64,000 bases of DNA, taken from Streptomyces coeruleorubidus (GTDB taxonomy: Bacteria > Actinomycetota > Actinomycetes > Streptomycetales > Streptomycetaceae). The notes below the pieces were generated by a model, which was not told the origin of the DNA, did not search any database, and saw only the letters and a program-made list of their open reading frames with translations. The first letter of the stretch is position 1; each line of letters opens with the position of its first letter. Where the stretch lies: positions 2,232,001 to 2,296,000 of the forward strand of contig NZ_CP023694.1 in NCBI RefSeq assembly GCF_008705135.1. Direction: 5' to 3'. The position numbers were made by a program, and so were the translations under genes. This document shows positions 3,640 through 62,475 of the stretch, one piece after another.

Positions 3640-4371
3640 TCAACGGCGTTGGCCGTAGCCGCGCAGCTGTTCCTGGACCTCCGCCAGTTGCTCCCCGGAC
3701 AGCAGGCTCGGGGACAGGCCCGGTACCGATGCGGCGGTCAGCCACAGGCGGCACATCCATTCCAGCTGGGCGGTGCGGTCGTAGGCCTGGTCCAGTGTCG
3801 TCCCGTGGGTGATGGTGCCGTGGTTCTGGAGGAGGCAGCCGGAGCGGTCGGCGAGGGCGCGGAGCATGTTCTCGGCCAACTCGTCGGTGCCGTACGTGGC
3901 ATATGGGGCAACCCGGACGGGTCCGCCGAGCGCGGCGGCCATGTAGTGGATCAGCGGCAGCTCGCTCACGAGCGTCGAGACGGCCGTCGCGTGCACGGCG
4001 TGGGTGTGGACGACGGCGCGGGCGCCGGTCGTGCGGTAGACCGCGAGGTGCATGGGCAGCTCGCTGGTCGGGACGAGTGCGCCGAGGACCTGCCGGCCGT
4101 CGAGGTCGACGCCGGTCACGTCGTCCGTCCTCAGTCGGTCGTAGGGGACGCCCGACGGCGTGACCAGGACCGTGTCCCCGACGCGCACCGAGACGTTCCC
4201 GGACGTGCCGACGACGAGTCCGTCGGAGACGGTCCGGCGGGCCGTCGCGACGAGTTCCTCCCAGGCGCGCGCCTCCTCGGGGCGGACACCCCTGCGCCGC
4301 GACTCCCCCGCATCCTGTCCGCCGCCCCGGACGTCCCCCGTGCCCCGCCCGTCACCTCGCTGCTCAGCCAT
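3640..4371 (-). CDS. Class II aldolase/adducin family protein (fuculose-phosphate aldolase-like)
   Basis: A 243-aa zinc-dependent class II aldolase of the FucA/AraD family. Phosphate-binding GTSGNVS lies at about residues 55-61, the catalytic glutamate at about 104 (TSELPMH), the zinc ligands in HTHAVH (about 122-127), and a third histidine in LQNHGTI (about 184). Known members cleave L-fuculose 1-phosphate to dihydroxyacetone phosphate and lactaldehyde, or epimerise ribulose 5-phosphate. Which one applies here is not clear. The ATG at 4371 is chosen because the homology begins shortly after it. The much longer open frame upstream is antisense to pitH2. The gene is divergent from pitH2. Confidence 0.83.
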   Translation of the reverse strand: MAEQRGDGRGTGDVRGGGQDAGESRRRGVRPEEARAWEELVATARRTVSDGLVVGTSGNVSVRVGDTVLVTPSGVPYDRLRTDDVTGVDLDGRQVLGALVPTSELPMHLAVYRTTGARAVVHTHAVHATAVSTLVSELPLIHYMAAALGGPVRVAPYATYGTDELAENMLRALADRSGCLLQNHGTITHGTTLDQAYDRTAQLEWMCRLWLTAASVPGLSPSLLSGEQLAEVQEQLRGYGQRR

Positions 4372-4623: not shown

Positions 4624-5868
4624 ATGGAAAGCTTCTCGCTGATCCTCGCGATTGTGGTAGTAACCGCACTCGCGTTCGATTTCACGAACGGTTTCCACGA
4701 CACGGCGAACGCGATGGCCACGACCATTTCCACGGGTGCCATGAAGCCCAAGGTCGCCGTCGCCATGTCCGCCGTCCTCAACCTGGTCGGCGCCTTCCTG
4801 TCGGTGGAAGTCGCCAACACGATCTCCAAGGGTCTCGTCGACGAGTCGGGCATCCGTCCCGAGGTCATCTTCGCCGCCCTGGTCGGCGCGATCCTCTGGA
4901 ACCTGCTGACCTGGCTGGTCGGCCTGCCGTCGAGTTCCTCGCACGCCCTGATGGGCGGCCTGATCGGCGCCACGATCGCCTCGGCGGGCGTCGGCGCGGT
5001 CCACGGCGACGTGCTGGTCACCAAGGTCCTGATCCCGGCGATCGCCGCCCCGCTGGTCGCGGGCATCGCGGCGATGCTCGCGACCCGGCTGACGTACACC
5101 CTCGGCAAGAAGGCCGACGGCAAGGCCTCCGAGAAGGGCTACCGGGCCGGCCAGATCGCCTCCGCGGGCCTGGTCTCGCTGGCCCACGGCACCAACGACG
5201 CCCAGAAGACGATGGGTGTCATCACCCTCGCCCTGGTCGCCGGCGGCGCCGTCGCCCCCGACTCCGACCCGCCCATGTGGGTCATCCTGTCGGCGGGCAT
5301 CGCCATCGCGCTCGGCACGTACCTCGGCGGCTGGCGCATCATCCGCACCATGGGCAAGGGCCTGACCGACCTCCAGCCGCAGCAGGGCTTCGCCGCCCAG
5401 ACCAGCGCGGCCACGGTCATCCTGGCCTCCTCGCACATCGGCTTCTCCCTCTCCACCACCCACTCCGTCTCCGGCTCGGTGATGGGCGCGGGGCTCGGCC
5501 GCAAGGGCGGTGTCGTCCGCTGGTCGACGGCGACGCGGATGTTCGTCGCGTGGGGTCTGACGCTGCCGGCGGCGGCCCTGGTGGCCGCGCTCGCCGAGTA
5601 CGTCACCGGCTTCGGCAGCTGGGGCACCGCGGTGGTGGCCGTCTTCCTCGTCACCTCCAGCGCGGCGATCTGGAAGATCTCGCGGCGTGAGGTCGTCGAC
5701 CACACCAACGTCAACGACACCGACGAGGCGGAGCCCGCCGGTGTGGTGACCACGGCGATGGCCGCGGTGACGCCGCCGCCGGCCGGCACGGCGACGGAGG
5801 ACCCGGTGCCGTCGTTCCCGGCCCAGGCCGCCGCCGAGCGGACGCCCTCGACGACCACCACGGTCTGA
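4624..5868 (+). CDS. pitH2: Low-affinity inorganic phosphate transporter, PiT family
   Basis: A 414-aa polytopic membrane protein of the PiT family, which takes up metal-phosphate complexes driven by the proton gradient. The duplicated family signature is present as DFTNGFHDTANAMA (about residues 19-32) and AHGTNDAQKTMG (about 186-197), with another conserved copy region, SSSHALMGGLIGA, between them. About ten hydrophobic segments are followed by a proline/threonine-rich cytosolic tail. The position next to the cob operon matches the pitH2 locus of S. coelicolor as recalled. No strong Shine-Dalgarno sequence precedes the ATG. The following small membrane protein starts 34 nt downstream and is probably cotranscribed. 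Confidence 0.93.
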   Translation: MESFSLILAIVVVTALAFDFTNGFHDTANAMATTISTGAMKPKVAVAMSAVLNLVGAFLSVEVANTISKGLVDESGIRPEVIFAALVGAILWNLLTWLVGLPSSSSHALMGGLIGATIASAGVGAVHGDVLVTKVLIPAIAAPLVAGIAAMLATRLTYTLGKKADGKASEKGYRAGQIASAGLVSLAHGTNDAQKTMGVITLALVAGGAVAPDSDPPMWVILSAGIAIALGTYLGGWRIIRTMGKGLTDLQPQQGFAAQTSAATVILASSHIGFSLSTTHSVSGSVMGAGLGRKGGVVRWSTATRMFVAWGLTLPAAALVAALAEYVTGFGSWGTAVVAVFLVTSSAAIWKISRREVVDHTNVNDTDEAEPAGVVTTAMAAVTPPPAGTATEDPVPSFPAQAAAERTPSTTTTV

Positions 5869-44080: not shown

Positions 44081-44096
44081 TGTCATCTACATGACA
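44081..44096. promoter_or_regulatory. Perfect inverted repeat upstream of sigma factor gene
   Basis: TGTCATCTACATGACA: TGTCAT and ATGACA are inverted with a 4-nt spacer, 54 nt before the preferred start of the sigma factor gene. It could be an operator or part of an autoregulated promoter. The protein is unknown. Confidence 0.4.
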
Positions 44097-44150
44097 CGCA
44101 TAGGCACCCCGGCCCGGGGTGCCCGAAGCCGCTGCGAGGAGAGGTCGCCC

Positions 44151-44756
44151 GTGGGCACAGTCGTCGACGACGCCGCCTCCGTGGAGTTCCACGCCTTCTT
44201 CGAGCGTCACTACGCCGAACTGTCCCGCCTGGCCTACCTGCTGACGGGCGAGTCGGACACCGCCGACGACCTGGCGGCGGACGCGTTGCTGGCGCTGTGG
44301 CACCGCTGGGACCGGGTGCGCGCCGCCGACCATCCGGCGGCGTACGCACGGGGTGTGGTCGCCAACCTGGCCCGGACCCGGATCCGCAGCGCCGTGCGGG
44401 AGCGGCGGCGCATCGCCCTGTTCTGGTCGCAGCGCGAGGAGAACACCGAGAACCCGGACGTCGCGGGCGTGGTCGACGTCCAGGAGGCGTTGCGCAGGCT
44501 GCCGTTCCGCAAGCGGGCCTGTGTGGTGCTGCGGCACGCGTTCGACCTCTCGGAGAAGGACACCGCGCTCGCCCTCGGCGTCTCGGTGGGTACGGTGAAG
44601 AGCCAGACCTCCAAGGGAATGGCCGAACTCCAGCGGTTGCTGGGCACACAGGGAGTACCGCAGCGGATGCACGCGGCGGTGGGCGCTCCCCGTTGCTCGC
44701 CGGTCGTGGAAAGCTTGCGGGCGCGCACCGGTGAGGGCGGAGGAAGGGACCGATGA
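44151..44756 (+). CDS. ECF (SigE-family type) RNA polymerase sigma factor
   Basis: A 201-aa ECF sigma factor. Region 2 is FHAFFERHYAELSRLAYLLT followed by ADDLAADALLALWHRWDRV. Region 4 is EALRRLPFRKRACVVLRHAF with SEKDTALALGVSVGTVKSQT. These match the actinobacterial SigE-family (ECF41/56-like) proteins. GTG at 44151 follows GGAGAGG. The upstream ATG at 44091 lies inside an inverted repeat and is rejected. It overlaps the next gene (ATGA), whose product is probably its membrane regulator. The pectate lyase genes begin 0.9 kb downstream. Confidence 0.9.
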   Translation: MGTVVDDAASVEFHAFFERHYAELSRLAYLLTGESDTADDLAADALLALWHRWDRVRAADHPAAYARGVVANLARTRIRSAVRERRRIALFWSQREENTENPDVAGVVDVQEALRRLPFRKRACVVLRHAFDLSEKDTALALGVSVGTVKSQTSKGMAELQRLLGTQGVPQRMHAAVGAPRCSPVVESLRARTGEGGGRDR

Positions 44757-45598
44757 CCATGCGGCGGGACGTGCACGAGGAGCTGCGCGCCCGGCTGCAC
44801 GAGGCGGCCGGGACGCACCAGCCCGACCGGGAGCAGATCCTGGCCCGGGTCGAGCGCGGTATGGCCGGTCCGGCCGGTGCCGGCCACCGGGCGACGCGTC
44901 CGCCGGTGTTCGGGTGGATGCGGGTGGCCGGTGCGACGGCCGCGGTGGCGGGCGTGCTGGCGGTGGGCGGTTACGCGGTCGCGTCCGCGGTGAAGGAGGA
45001 GACCGCCCCGCAGCAGCAGGACGTGGCGACGTCGCCGACGCCCACGCCGTCGCCGGAGGCGACGAGCCGGGCCCCGGCGCCGCCGGTGGATCCCACGCCG
45101 TCCGCCCCGCCGGAGCGCCGCGAGTCCGCCCCGCCGCCCTCGCGGACGCCGAGCACCTCCGTCACCGGGCGGCCGCCCGCCGCCACGGAGGACGGGCCGC
45201 TGTGGTCGGACGGCTCGGTGGACCCGCACAGCAACGACTTCTGGGCGCAGAGCAACATCACGATCAAGACGCGCGAGGAACTGACCGCGCTGACCGTGCG
45301 GTTGAGCGTCGCCCAGACCGGCGGGGTCTCCGACGCGGGCGCCTGGCGGTCGCTGCCCGAGCAGGACTTCAGGCTCACGGTCGGCGAGCGGGACGGCTTC
45401 CTCGTCTACACCTGGACCCTGAAGGAGGGCCGCAAGGTCCCGGCGGGCGAGTGGGTGTTCGCGGGCCAGTTCGACCACGAGCGAGGCGGCCGTGACGCCG
45501 GCGCCGACCGGTACACGGTGACGGCCGCGGCCGGTGCGGAGCGGCTGTCCGTGGGCGGCGGTTTCGCGGCCGTGGACGGCACCGACGACGACTCGTGA
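44753..45598 (+). CDS. Single-pass membrane protein, putative anti-sigma partner
   Basis: A 281-aa protein with a cytosolic N-terminal 55 residues, one transmembrane segment (VAGATAAVAGVLAVGGYAVA, about residues 58-77), a long Pro/Thr/Ser-rich extracellular linker (about 90-145) and a C-terminal beta-rich domain (FWAQSNITIKTREELTALTV). The translational overlap with the sigma factor gene and the topology suggest an anti-sigma or co-sensor role, although no ZAS motif or standard anti-sigma domain is visible. The outer domain may sense the cell wall or polymer. Confidence 0.75.
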   Translation: MTMRRDVHEELRARLHEAAGTHQPDREQILARVERGMAGPAGAGHRATRPPVFGWMRVAGATAAVAGVLAVGGYAVASAVKEETAPQQQDVATSPTPTPSPEATSRAPAPPVDPTPSAPPERRESAPPPSRTPSTSVTGRPPAATEDGPLWSDGSVDPHSNDFWAQSNITIKTREELTALTVRLSVAQTGGVSDAGAWRSLPEQDFRLTVGERDGFLVYTWTLKEGRKVPAGEWVFAGQFDHERGGRDAGADRYTVTAAAGAERLSVGGGFAAVDGTDDDS

Positions 45599-45682
45599 AA
45601 AATTCCTGAAGGCACGGCAACCCTTTCCTCACCGGTGGCGACCACCAGACGCAAGAGTCACCACCCATTGAGGAATCGGTAC

Positions 45683-46516
45683 ATGACTGCACCAGCAGAA
45701 CAGCGCGTCCGCCATCGCCGCCGGCTCACCAAGCGGCGGGCCATGATCGCCGGGTTATCGGCGTTCGGCATCACGGGAGCGGCGATCGTCACCACGTCGA
45801 TGCTGTCCACCGCGGGCGCCGCGTCCTCCTGGCCCACGGACAAGGGCAAGACGCCCGTGTCGGAGACCATCGCGGTCTCCGGTGTCCGCGACGGCGGGAT
45901 GAAGATGTTCTACGGCTCCGGCGCGCTCGGCGGCGACAGCCAGGACGAGGGCCAGGCCCCCCTCTTCGAGCTGGCCGACGGCGCGACGCTCAAGAACGTC
46001 ATCATCGGCACCCCGGCCGCGGACGGTGTGCACTGCAAGGGCAGTTGCACGCTCCAGAACGTGTGGTGGACGGACGTCGGCGAGGACGCGGCCAGCTTCA
46101 AGGGCAAGTCGTCGTCGGCCGTGTACAAGGTGATCGGCGGCGGCGCGAAGAACGCCGACGACAAGGTGCTCCAGTTCAACGGCGCCGGCACGCTGAACGT
46201 CTCGGGCTTCCAGGTGCAGAACGCCGGGAAGCTGGTGCGCTCCTGCGGCAACTGCAAGACGCAGTACAAGCGCACGGTCGTGCTGAACGACATCGACGTC
46301 ACGGCGCCCATGAACTCGATCGTCGGCGTGAACGCCAACTACGGCGACACGGCCACGCTGTCGAAGATCCGCATCCACGGCGACAGCAAGAAGAAGATCA
46401 AGACGTGTGTGCGCTTCGAGGGCAACAACACGGGCAAGGAGCCCAAGGAGCTGACCCCTCCCGGGCCGGACGGCAAGACCTGCAAGTTCAAGGCCTCGGA
46501 CATCAGCTACCAGTGA
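45683..46516 (+). CDS. Secreted pectate lyase, family PL3
   Basis: A 277-aa secreted protein with a twin-arginine-like signal (TKRRAMIAGLSAFGITGAAI) and a PL3 catalytic domain: FELADGATLKNVIIGTPAAD, GVHCKGSCTLQNVWWTDVGE, EDAASFKG, KVLQFNGAGTLNVSGFQVQN and VRSCGNCKTQYKR. PL3 enzymes cut polygalacturonate by calcium-dependent beta-elimination. Codon 25 is TTA (45755-45757), the only TTA found in an accepted gene here, so translation should need the bldA tRNA. ATG at 45683 follows GAGGAA. It ends in a strong terminator. Confidence 0.93.
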   Translation: MTAPAEQRVRHRRRLTKRRAMIAGLSAFGITGAAIVTTSMLSTAGAASSWPTDKGKTPVSETIAVSGVRDGGMKMFYGSGALGGDSQDEGQAPLFELADGATLKNVIIGTPAADGVHCKGSCTLQNVWWTDVGEDAASFKGKSSSAVYKVIGGGAKNADDKVLQFNGAGTLNVSGFQVQNAGKLVRSCGNCKTQYKRTVVLNDIDVTAPMNSIVGVNANYGDTATLSKIRIHGDSKKKIKTCVRFEGNNTGKEPKELTPPGPDGKTCKFKASDISYQ

Positions 46517-46738: not shown

Positions 46739-46976
46739 CTAGGGCGTGTCCGTAAAGTCCCGCCTGCCCCGCGACGCCCGGCACGCTCCCCCACTGCCTT
46801 AAGGGCGTGGGAGGTGCCCCCACTCGCCGCACCGGCCGAACACCCGCGTACAACCAGTACGCGGGCGTCCGCCCGGCACTCCCCCAGCCTTCGGCCGGGG
46901 GGCACCCAGAGCACGCACCGAACGCCGCAGGGCCCGCCCTCCGGGCGGACGACGGGACTTTACGGACACGCCCTAG
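46739..46976 (-). mobile_element. MITE-like element, copy 2 (238 bp)
   Basis: Inverted relative to copy 1 at 27166-27404. The 24-bp terminal repeats are perfect within this copy (left end CTAGGGCGTGTCCGTAAAGT) but differ from copy 1 at two positions, on both ends. The interior hairpin with arms CCCGCGTAC/GTACGCGGG is conserved. The right CTAG (46973-46976) supplies the TAG stop of the PL9 gene. No transposase is encoded. Confidence 0.85.
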
Positions 46977-48127
46977 TCCATCGTCGAGCCGATGGCCGTG
47001 GAGCCGGTCGTCAGGAACGTGGTCGCCGGGAGGGAGCCGTCCGCCCGGCGCGCTCCGTACGCGCTTCTCGCGTCCGTCGATCTGAAGGGCGGGGTGGCGA
47101 CGCCGCTGTCCCAGCTGTTTCCGGCGGAGACGGCCGCGGAGCCCAGCTCGGCGGGGCCGCCCTTGTCGCTCACGGCGAGGTTCTTGCCGAGGCGGGCTTT
47201 GCCGGTGGCGAAGGAGAAGCCGTTGTGGGCGTTGGCATACGTGGTGTTGCGGTTCAGGGCGACGGCGCCGGTGTTGGAGTTCTCGGTGAAGCCGTGCAGC
47301 GTGTTGTCCCAGGCGGCGTTGTTGTTGACGACATGGGCGACCGACGCTCCGCCGCCGCCCAGTTTGAAACCGTTGCCGTTGCCCTCGAAGGCGGGGTCGT
47401 TCCAGCGGTTCTCGCCGTTGCCGAAGGCCCAGGAGTGCTCGATGGTGACCGGTGAGGAGAACTGCCAGAGGTCGAGGCCGTCGTCGGAGTTGTCGTACAG
47501 CCGGGCGCCGGTGATCCTGTTGCCCGTCCCGGAGCCGAACTTGACGGCGATGCCGTCGGCGTTCTGGCCGTGGCCGGCCGGGTCGTAGTTGCCGTGGCTG
47601 TCCAGGTTCTGCACGAGGTTGCCGGTCGTGCCGTCGCCGCGCAGGGTGAAGCCGGAGTCCCCGTTGTCCGCTGTGACGAGGTTCTTGAAGACGCCTCCGG
47701 CGGAGGACGTGGCGACGAAGCCCTGGGCGGGTGAGTTGACGAAGGTGAGGTCCTGGACGGTCCAGTGGTCGCCGTGGACGGCGGCCAGCCAGGAGCCGGC
47801 GGGCAGTTTCGAACCGTCGATCCGGACCTTCTCACCGCCGTACGCCCGCAGGGTGATGCGAGCCGAACTGGTGCCGTTCGCCGTGGACTTGAGGGTCGCG
47901 GCCGGATAGTAGGTGCCGCCGCGGACCTGGATGGTGATCCCCGCGGTGGCGTTCTTCACGGCCGCTTCGAGCTGGGCCGCGGTGGAGACGGTGACCGTCG
48001 ACGAGGCGGCCTGCGCGCCGCCTCCCGAGAGCCCGAGGTAGACGCCGCCCGCCCCCGAGGCGCAGACCACCGCGGCGGCGATGGCGAGCGTACGGGTCCT
48101 GCGGTGGCGTCCTGCGCTGAGCAGCAC
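46973..48127 (-). CDS. Secreted right-handed beta-helix pectate lyase, family PL9-like
   Basis: A 384-aa secreted protein. The signal is TRTLAIAAAVVCASGAGGVY. It is followed by STAAQLEAAVKNATAGITIQ and VRGGTYYPAATLKSTANGTS, then repeated beta-helix strands with GHGQNADGIAVKFGSGTGNR and ARLYDNSDDGLDLWQFSSPV, the signature of PL9 (PelL/PelX-type) enzymes, and later NGFKLGGGG. They cut polygalacturonate or rhamnogalacturonan with calcium. GTG at 48127 follows AAAGGA. The stop codon TAG lies in the MITE edge, so the final residues may be altered relative to relatives. Confidence 0.9.
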   Translation of the reverse strand: MLLSAGRHRRTRTLAIAAAVVCASGAGGVYLGLSGGGAQAASSTVTVSTAAQLEAAVKNATAGITIQVRGGTYYPAATLKSTANGTSSARITLRAYGGEKVRIDGSKLPAGSWLAAVHGDHWTVQDLTFVNSPAQGFVATSSAGGVFKNLVTADNGDSGFTLRGDGTTGNLVQNLDSHGNYDPAGHGQNADGIAVKFGSGTGNRITGARLYDNSDDGLDLWQFSSPVTIEHSWAFGNGENRWNDPAFEGNGNGFKLGGGGASVAHVVNNNAAWDNTLHGFTENSNTGAVALNRNTTYANAHNGFSFATGKARLGKNLAVSDKGGPAELGSAAVSAGNSWDSGVATPPFRSTDARSAYGARRADGSLPATTFLTTGSTAIGSTMD

Positions 48128-48257
48128 GAAGCGGTCCTTTCCTGGGGAACGGGGACGGAAACGGTCGGGAGGGGCCCGCTCCGTCCCGTTTCCGACCAGC
48201 AGTCGCCGCCGCGCAGCGAAAGGGTTGCCGCCGTCACGTGCACCGGCGTGCCCGAGC

Positions 48258-60966: not shown

Positions 60967-62475
60967 TTACGAGGCGCTGATCCGGAACTGGGTGAAGGTG
61001 GCCGCGCCGGCGTGTCCCTGGCCGGCGGGCGCGAGGGCGACGAGGCCGAGCAGGGCGCCGACCCAGCGCCACGGGGTGGCGGTGAAGACCGGGCCCGACG
61101 GCCGGAAGCCGTCGCCGACGTCGGCCGAGAAGCGGCAGCGGGCGCCCGCGCCGATCTCGATCCGCAGCCGGGCTCGGCCCCCGGGCGCGAGCCGCGGGTG
61201 GGCGGCGTCGCGTTCGCCGTCCGCGACCGCCTCGGCGAACCGGTGCACGAGGTGCGCGGTCCCGTCCGCGCCCCGCTGGAGCCCGATCCAGCCGAACGCG
61301 TCCCCGAGGACCGCGAGACCGGCCCGGGCCCCGGGTTCGTCGCTGTCGAGCCGCAGTTCCACCTCGACCGTGCAGGGTTTGCCGGGCAGCCGCTGGGTGA
61401 GCACGTTCGGCAGCTTGCGCAGGTCGTGCGCGTCGGCCGAGCGGACGCAGGTCAGCCGGAGCCCGTCCCCGGAGTGCTGGGTGGCCCAGCCGTCGCCCGG
61501 GTTGGCGGTCCACTGCCACTGTCGGCCGTACCGTCCGCCGGGGAAGTCGTCGTCGGTGGCCGGCGCGGCGGGCGGCTGCGGCGGCAGGCCGGGCTTCCCG
61601 TACACGGCGACGGGGGCGCCGTCGTCGCCGAGCACCGGCCAGCCGTCCGCCCCCCAGCGCATCGGCTGGAGGTGCACGACCCGGCCGTAGGCGCCGCGCT
61701 GCTGGAAGTGCAGGAACCAGTCCTCGCCGGACGCGGTGCGCACCCAGCCGCCCTGGTGGGGGCCGTTGACCTCGGTGTCCTTCTGTTCCAGGACGATCCG
61801 CTCCTCGTACGGCCCGAAGAAACCGCGCGAGCGGAAGGCGCCCTGCCAGCCGGTCTCCACTCCCCCGGCGGGGGCGAAGATCCAGAACCAGCCGTCGTGC
61901 CGGTAGAGCTTGGGACCTTCCAGGGTGAACCAGCCGGGTATGCGGTCGGCGTCGACGATCACCTTGCCCTCGTCGAGGAGTTCGGTGCCGTCGGGGCGCA
62001 TGCGGTGTCCGGTGAGGCGGTTCTTGATGCCCGAGCGGGACTTGGCCCAGGCGTGGACCAGATAGGCCTCGCCGGTGTCCTCGTCCCACAGGGGACACGG
62101 GTCGATCAGGCCCTTGCCGGCCTTCACCAGGTGCGGGCGGGTCCAGGGGCCCCTGATCTCGGGGGCGTTGACCTGGAAGATGCCCTGGTCGGGGTCGCCC
62201 CAGAAGATCCAGAAGCGTTCGTCGTGGTACCTGAGGGACGGGGCCCAGACGCCGCAGTCGTGGCGGGGTTTCTTGAATTCCTCCGCCGGTTCCAGACGGT
62301 CGAGCGCGTGGCCGACCAGCGTCCAGTTCACCAGGTCGTGGGAGTGGAGTAAGGGCAGTCCGGGGGCGCGGCCGAAGCTGGAGGCGGTCAGGTAGAAGTC
62401 CTCGCCGACGCGGACGACGTCCGGGTCGGACCAGTCGGCGTCGAGGACCGGGTTGCGGTAGGTCTCGGTGGTCAC
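60967..62475 (-). CDS. GH43 glycoside hydrolase with C-terminal beta-sandwich, cytosolic
   Basis: A 502-aa GH43 enzyme without signal peptide. Triad: DADWSDPDVVRVGEDFYLTA (base, about residue 14), LIDPCPLWDEDTGEAYLVHA (modulator, about 131) and FTLEGPKLYRHDGWFWIFAP (acid, about 185). The C-terminal 200 residues form a GH43 beta-sandwich (GRQWQWTANPGDGWATQHSG). Similar proteins act as beta-xylosidase or alpha-L-arabinofuranosidase on imported oligosaccharides. The GTG overlaps the DUF6807 stop by 4 nt. Confidence 0.92.
   Translation of the reverse strand: MTTETYRNPVLDADWSDPDVVRVGEDFYLTASSFGRAPGLPLLHSHDLVNWTLVGHALDRLEPAEEFKKPRHDCGVWAPSLRYHDERFWIFWGDPDQGIFQVNAPEIRGPWTRPHLVKAGKGLIDPCPLWDEDTGEAYLVHAWAKSRSGIKNRLTGHRMRPDGTELLDEGKVIVDADRIPGWFTLEGPKLYRHDGWFWIFAPAGGVETGWQGAFRSRGFFGPYEERIVLEQKDTEVNGPHQGGWVRTASGEDWFLHFQQRGAYGRVVHLQPMRWGADGWPVLGDDGAPVAVYGKPGLPPQPPAAPATDDDFPGGRYGRQWQWTANPGDGWATQHSGDGLRLTCVRSADAHDLRKLPNVLTQRLPGKPCTVEVELRLDSDEPGARAGLAVLGDAFGWIGLQRGADGTAHLVHRFAEAVADGERDAAHPRLAPGGRARLRIEIGAGARCRFSADVGDGFRPSGPVFTATPWRWVGALLGLVALAPAGQGHAGAATFTQFRISAS

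Follow-up and report, generated by a model that had tools for sequence, protein, structure and literature searches.

The pectate lyase gene of family PL3 that we studied here (45683..46516, + strand of the window, i.e., of the whole stretch of 64,000 nucleotides of Streptomyces coeruleorubidus DNA that was analysed) carries an in-frame TTA codon in its signal peptide. We propose, with a probability of about 0.65, that this gene encodes a TTA-bearing and probably bldA-dependent secreted enzyme, within a module formed by a sigma factor and lyase that has been targeted recurrently. From sequence comparison, this module is likely subject to a bldA brake in the window and, it seems, recurrently in the genus, with the position of the codon not being conserved and other enzymes being included.

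The TTA codon of the lyase gene and the bldA tRNA

The predicted product is a PL3 pectate lyase of 277 amino acids with an N-terminal signal peptide. The open reading frame runs from an ATG at 45683 to a stop codon ending at 46516, and residues 48-249 match PF03211 (E-value 1.7e-77; 260 bits for a cut-off of 25). The TTA previously noticed at codon 25 (45755..45757, + strand) was found again when both the sequence and the open reading frame were reread and, since the catalytic domain begins at residue 48, it falls within the signal peptide, the latter being judged by eye. The gene has the in-frame TTA expected of a bldA-dependent gene. The annotated start at 45683 appears sound, based on the putative ribosome-binding site GAGGA that we read directly at 45670..45674 (+ strand; GAGGA or AAGGA in most relatives displayed) and on the N-terminus MTA[PR]xEQRVRHRR common to most PL3 relatives. 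The earlier note had envisaged that a corrected start could lie downstream of codon 25. No alternative start sensibly escapes the TTA: from 45743 the codon stays inside the open reading frame, and from the next in-frame ATG (45800, codon 40) the signal peptide would be split in two. We also observed in the signal peptide (45683-45820) a twin-arginine-like motif, RRx-hydrophobic-hydrophobic, present under a loose rule in 121 of the 132 full N-termini; PL3 is possibly a candidate Tat substrate.

The bldA tRNA accumulates late in Streptomyces. The genome (9.34 Mb, one contig) contains a single match to the bldA-type tRNA pattern, which ARAGORN reads as a tRNA-Leu with anticodon TAA. The same pattern matches 90 of the 101 genus genomes searched, the misses being perhaps due to limits of the pattern itself. 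With one tRNA-Leu(UAA) gene detected, full-length PL3 should depend on it, and the TTA codon probably limits translation in vivo. The proposal of the earlier note that PL3 is under bldA was supported by the single tRNA gene, whereas most PL3 orthologues have no TTA (see below). In S. ghanaensis, the UUA codon of adpA has been suggested to be mistranslated when bldA is absent (PMC3814723, in part), and few TTA genes are among the bldA-affected genes in the available part of Hesketh et al. (PMC2000904). As a side observation, the product of 4624-5868 resembles by eye a PiT-type phosphate transporter and is possibly, by synteny, a candidate counterpart of SCO1845, a gene listed as up in the bldA mutant in the same part of PMC2000904.

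Contrary to what had been stated, PL3 is not alone in the window in having a TTA codon. Scanning the coding frames recovered TTA in 2 of the 54 called genes, PL3 and a GH43 glycoside hydrolase gene (60967..62475, - strand; PF04616 and PF17851) whose codon 42, within the Pfam GH43 domain, is an in-frame TTA (62350..62352, - strand). A third TTA appears only when the start of 3640-4371 (- strand) is moved far upstream. In a sample of 30 GH43 loci taken out of 155 genomes with a match, TTA occupied codon 42 in 3 loci, window genome included, and any of several positions in 6. In this genome, the pectin island thus has no fewer than two TTA-bearing enzymes, and the idea that its other genes escape bldA could not be retained. 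Finding a TTA gene in the window does not exceed what chance would give, as the probability of at least two among 54 genes is 0.43 at the genomic rate of 2.7% per gene (7/261 genes when 400 kb of the same genome were sampled). The mean number of TTA-bearing ORFs per Streptomyces genome is given as 177 in the available part of PMC10327506. Two of the seven TTA genes of the 400 kb sample (L172, 13839-16295, and L174, 12090-13544) have products that look secreted, the TTA lying at codon 28 and codon 6, respectively, inside the signal-peptide region or close to it.

Recurrence of TTA in the lyase and sigma factor genes

Of the 295 genus genomes, 147 had a PL3 match at an E-value of 1e-20 and the other 148 had none at this threshold. 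We assembled 170 PL3 loci (30 + 60 regions among the matches listed, plus the best 80 of 187), from which 17 exact duplicate genes were removed to obtain 153 non-redundant loci; 17 of the PL3 places were also taken with longer flanks, and one of these 17 (L208), a duplicate of a named locus, was excluded. Codon 25 was TTA in 7/153 loci, all of them sharing 94% identity or more with the window protein. We observed TTA anywhere in the gene in 19/153 loci, at 7 alignment positions that vary between codons 4, 25, 28, 40 or 41, 76 or 77, and 102, with one at 23; 17 of the 20 TTA codons were within codons 1-50. Conservation among orthologues, which is typical of adpA-like targets without being obligatory, was thus not observed, either for codon 25 or for TTA at any position. 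The remaining 134 loci had no TTA at all, indicating that the family does not have bldA control as a fixed trait. The earlier note had regarded orthologues lacking TTA with the same regulation as evidence against bldA control; this holds for most species at the level of the codon only.

Summed over the TTA columns, we counted 11 parsimony changes in PL3 (122 sigma-linked rows; tree built without the TTA columns), a number that covers the columns shared by at least two rows plus two single-row columns and in which gain and loss are not distinguished. In the nearest relatives of several TTA gains, the site is occupied by Phe TTC, Pro CCA, or Val, and the Phe TTC was well kept (105/122 rows) where some of these gains occurred. 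The retention of TTA25 was not accepted as a proof of selection: among the A/T-ending codons of S. olindensis (L042, three genes), 22/51 were also retained in all six relatives, so that the persistence of TTA25 in seven species proves little.

These patterns recall neutral drift, by which TTA would be gained and lost in secreted enzymes that are under weak constraint and variably present, with no regulatory weight here. We consider this explanation rather unlikely. It agrees with the many PL3 orthologues without TTA, with the restriction of TTA25 to one small group and its ordinary retention, with the two TTA genes that chance alone predicts in the window, and with the poor conservation of most TTA codons described in part of PMC10327506. 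The comparison of PL3 with its neighbours, however, speaks against it. In PL3, 20 of the 2,198 Leu codons were TTA, vs. 3 of the 35,836 Leu codons of a control made of 20 gene families around PL3 loci (1,137 genes); counting distinct TTA columns over the same Leu totals, the figures were 7 vs. 3 (Fisher p 2e-7). In this first control, gene starts were placed too far downstream and some signal peptides were missing. With starts over-extended by up to 60 codons upstream, the control contained 10 TTA in 37,232 Leu codons (p 2e-5 on columns). Both p values are optimistic, because PL3 was selected for its TTA and because related sequences are not independent.

TTA was raised alone in PL3, TTG, CTT, and CTA being not raised: the ratio of TTA to the sum of these three codons was 20 vs. 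25 in PL3 and 13 vs. 1,365 in the neighbours, and in the first 50 codons 17 vs. 11 in PL3 and 3 vs. 117 in secreted neighbours (defined by a crude rule). As the share of A/T-ending codons in PL3 is also ordinary (4.8%), a general A/T drift of the gene is disfavoured. Moreover, the other pectinase families of the island have no or few TTA codons. Among them, the right-handed beta-helix pectate lyase (Pel9A/PelX-like) encoded by the convergent gene downstream of PL3 (46973..48127, - strand) has no TTA in its window copy, and TTA was present in 2/93 members of its family. The far more frequent acquisition of TTA by PL3 and the adjacent sigma gene than by their neighbours favours a real role, and selection rather than drift is probably behind the gains.

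The neighbourhood of PL3 is conserved. Upstream lies a gene for an ECF sigma factor of the SigE-fam_strep subfamily (44091..44756, + strand), which passes the NCBIfam model TIGR02983 (E-value 9.5e-51; 171.9 bits for a cut-off of 141.55) and is linked to PL3 in 122/153 loci. Its codon 66 is TTG in the window and TTA in 9 relatives. Within the 122 linked loci, TTA was present in PL3 in 17, in the sigma gene in 11 (L039, L042, L046, L048, L049, L050, L052, L074, L094, L128, and L150), in both in 2, and in either in 26. When we restricted the comparison to the 25 loci with a PL3 identity of at least 85%, the corresponding numbers were 8, 8, 1, and 15. Two linked sets of 122 rows with slightly different limits were used, so that the sigma TTA count is 11 rows in this set and 10 in the tree set. 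The TTA of the sigma gene carries less weight than that of PL3, since the sigma gene is richer in A/T-ending codons (11.2%), TTG, from which TTA is one step away, is common there, and the difference between the sigma TTA rate and that of the 400 kb genome sample was not significant. Between the two genes, overlapping the sigma gene, is a gene without family match (44753..45598, + strand) whose product has one likely transmembrane stretch, as judged by eye, and is a possible candidate for an anti-sigma or partner protein; none of its 118 relatives contained TTA.

The promoter-like element and the history of the module

A conserved promoter-like element, GGCAACC-N14-GGCGACC, was detected by sequence comparison upstream of PL3 (45616..45643, + strand), and a variant of it (GGCAACC...GGCGAC type) upstream of the beta-helix lyase gene (48202..48229, - strand). 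A looser form is present in 126 of 149 stretches upstream of PL3 and before 51/65 relatives of the beta-helix lyase. By eye, the spacing of the element resembles that of ECF promoters, and the element is likely a shared ECF promoter of the two lyase genes. It would probably be read by the upstream sigma factor, given their co-occurrence: the looser form was found in 110/122 sigma-linked loci vs. 11/24 unlinked loci in which at least 2.5 kb of upstream sequence was seen. Strict whole-genome searches for the element, one with 1 place and another with 2 (0 for the reversed control), the second place being L211, revealed no wider regulon. Autoregulation of the sigma gene through the element was rejected, as the element precedes only 1/123 sigma genes.

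In the mechanism that we propose, the neighbouring sigma factor would probably direct transcription of PL3 from the ECF-type promoter. At codon 25, in the signal peptide, ribosomes would stall or abort without charged tRNA-Leu(UAA) from bldA, and secretion of the lyase would be held back to the stage or stress at which the bldA tRNA accumulates. The sigma-lyase module would be a recurrent target, the site of the TTA differing by lineage and lying in either the lyase or the sigma gene.

One may go further and suppose that a developmental tRNA keeps control of the pectin-lyase module as a whole, TTA shifting between the sigma and lyase genes by mutation or recombination; we regard this extension as unlikely. 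If TTA moved in this way, the number of braked genes would change, from a whole regulon to one enzyme or conversely. A related and equally doubtful scenario is that turnover keeps the module under bldA, the sigma TTA having been passed to the lyase in the lineage of the window. In the three-gene tree, all species of the window clade (13/13) had TTA in the sigma gene or PL3, and S. olindensis, with TTA in both genes, occupied an intermediate-like position. However, when two flanking genes were added, S. olindensis shifted beside L050 and its grouping with the six relatives was rejected (p-AU 0.014), and block identities suggested that recombination had occurred locally, close to the PL3 5' end. 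Furthermore, in the sister set of 11 species, the sigma TTA was lost or never present and only 1/11 had TTA in PL3. In view of the flanking-gene tree and the block identities, we do not claim a handover from sigma to lyase, which was discarded as a settled history.

Finally, it is very improbable that TTA, as a slow signal-peptide codon, aids targeting or folding with no developmental switch. The concentration of PL3 TTA codons in the first 50 codons would fit this view, but the N-termini of the neighbour families show no TTA rise (over the first 60 codons, TTA made up 9/5,959 Leu codons in the 20 control families, which are not all secreted, vs. 17/516 in PL3), no increase is seen for the other rare Leu codons, TTA also occurs in the cytoplasmic sigma gene, and a TTA bias to gene starts has already been described across Streptomyces (PMC4255298, in part).

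Comparison with known bldA targets

If the bldA-dependent reading of PL3 is correct, bldA control of plant-polymer use would widen from cellulose to pectin. A natural series would also be available, made of modules without TTA and modules with TTA in the sigma gene, the lyase gene, or both, with which one could ask whether UUA times secreted enzymes or is mostly a bystander, a point that is debated. We found no literature on pectate lyases together with Streptomyces and TTA codons, and texts mentioning pectin with both of the latter exist. Likewise, no literature report tying SigE-fam_strep factors to pectin genes or recurrent TTA was found among the matches listed; the upstream neighbour of PL3 fits the cut-off of this family.

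TTA is frequent in cellulose-utilisation genes, such as celB/celS2 (SCO1187-1188), according to the examined parts of PMC4255298 (Table 2), from which a PL3 gene beside an ECF sigma gene is absent. In S. scabies, the TTA of cellulase genes lies near the start, at nucleotides 13 and 22, and TTA may occupy one or another gene of a cluster (PMC4255298 and PMC5332605, both in part). Like celB/celS2 and the S. scabies cellulases, PL3 is a secreted plant-polymer enzyme with TTA; unlike the cellulose genes, which in S. scabies have CebR boxes, it adjoins an ECF sigma gene. The likeness to adpA and txtR is that a UUA codon subjects translation to the bldA tRNA, as described in parts of PMC4255298 and PMC5332605. 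In contrast to the variable TTA of PL3, that of adpA was retained in every streptomycete analysed, according to the review among these sources, and, unlike these two regulators, PL3 is an enzyme.
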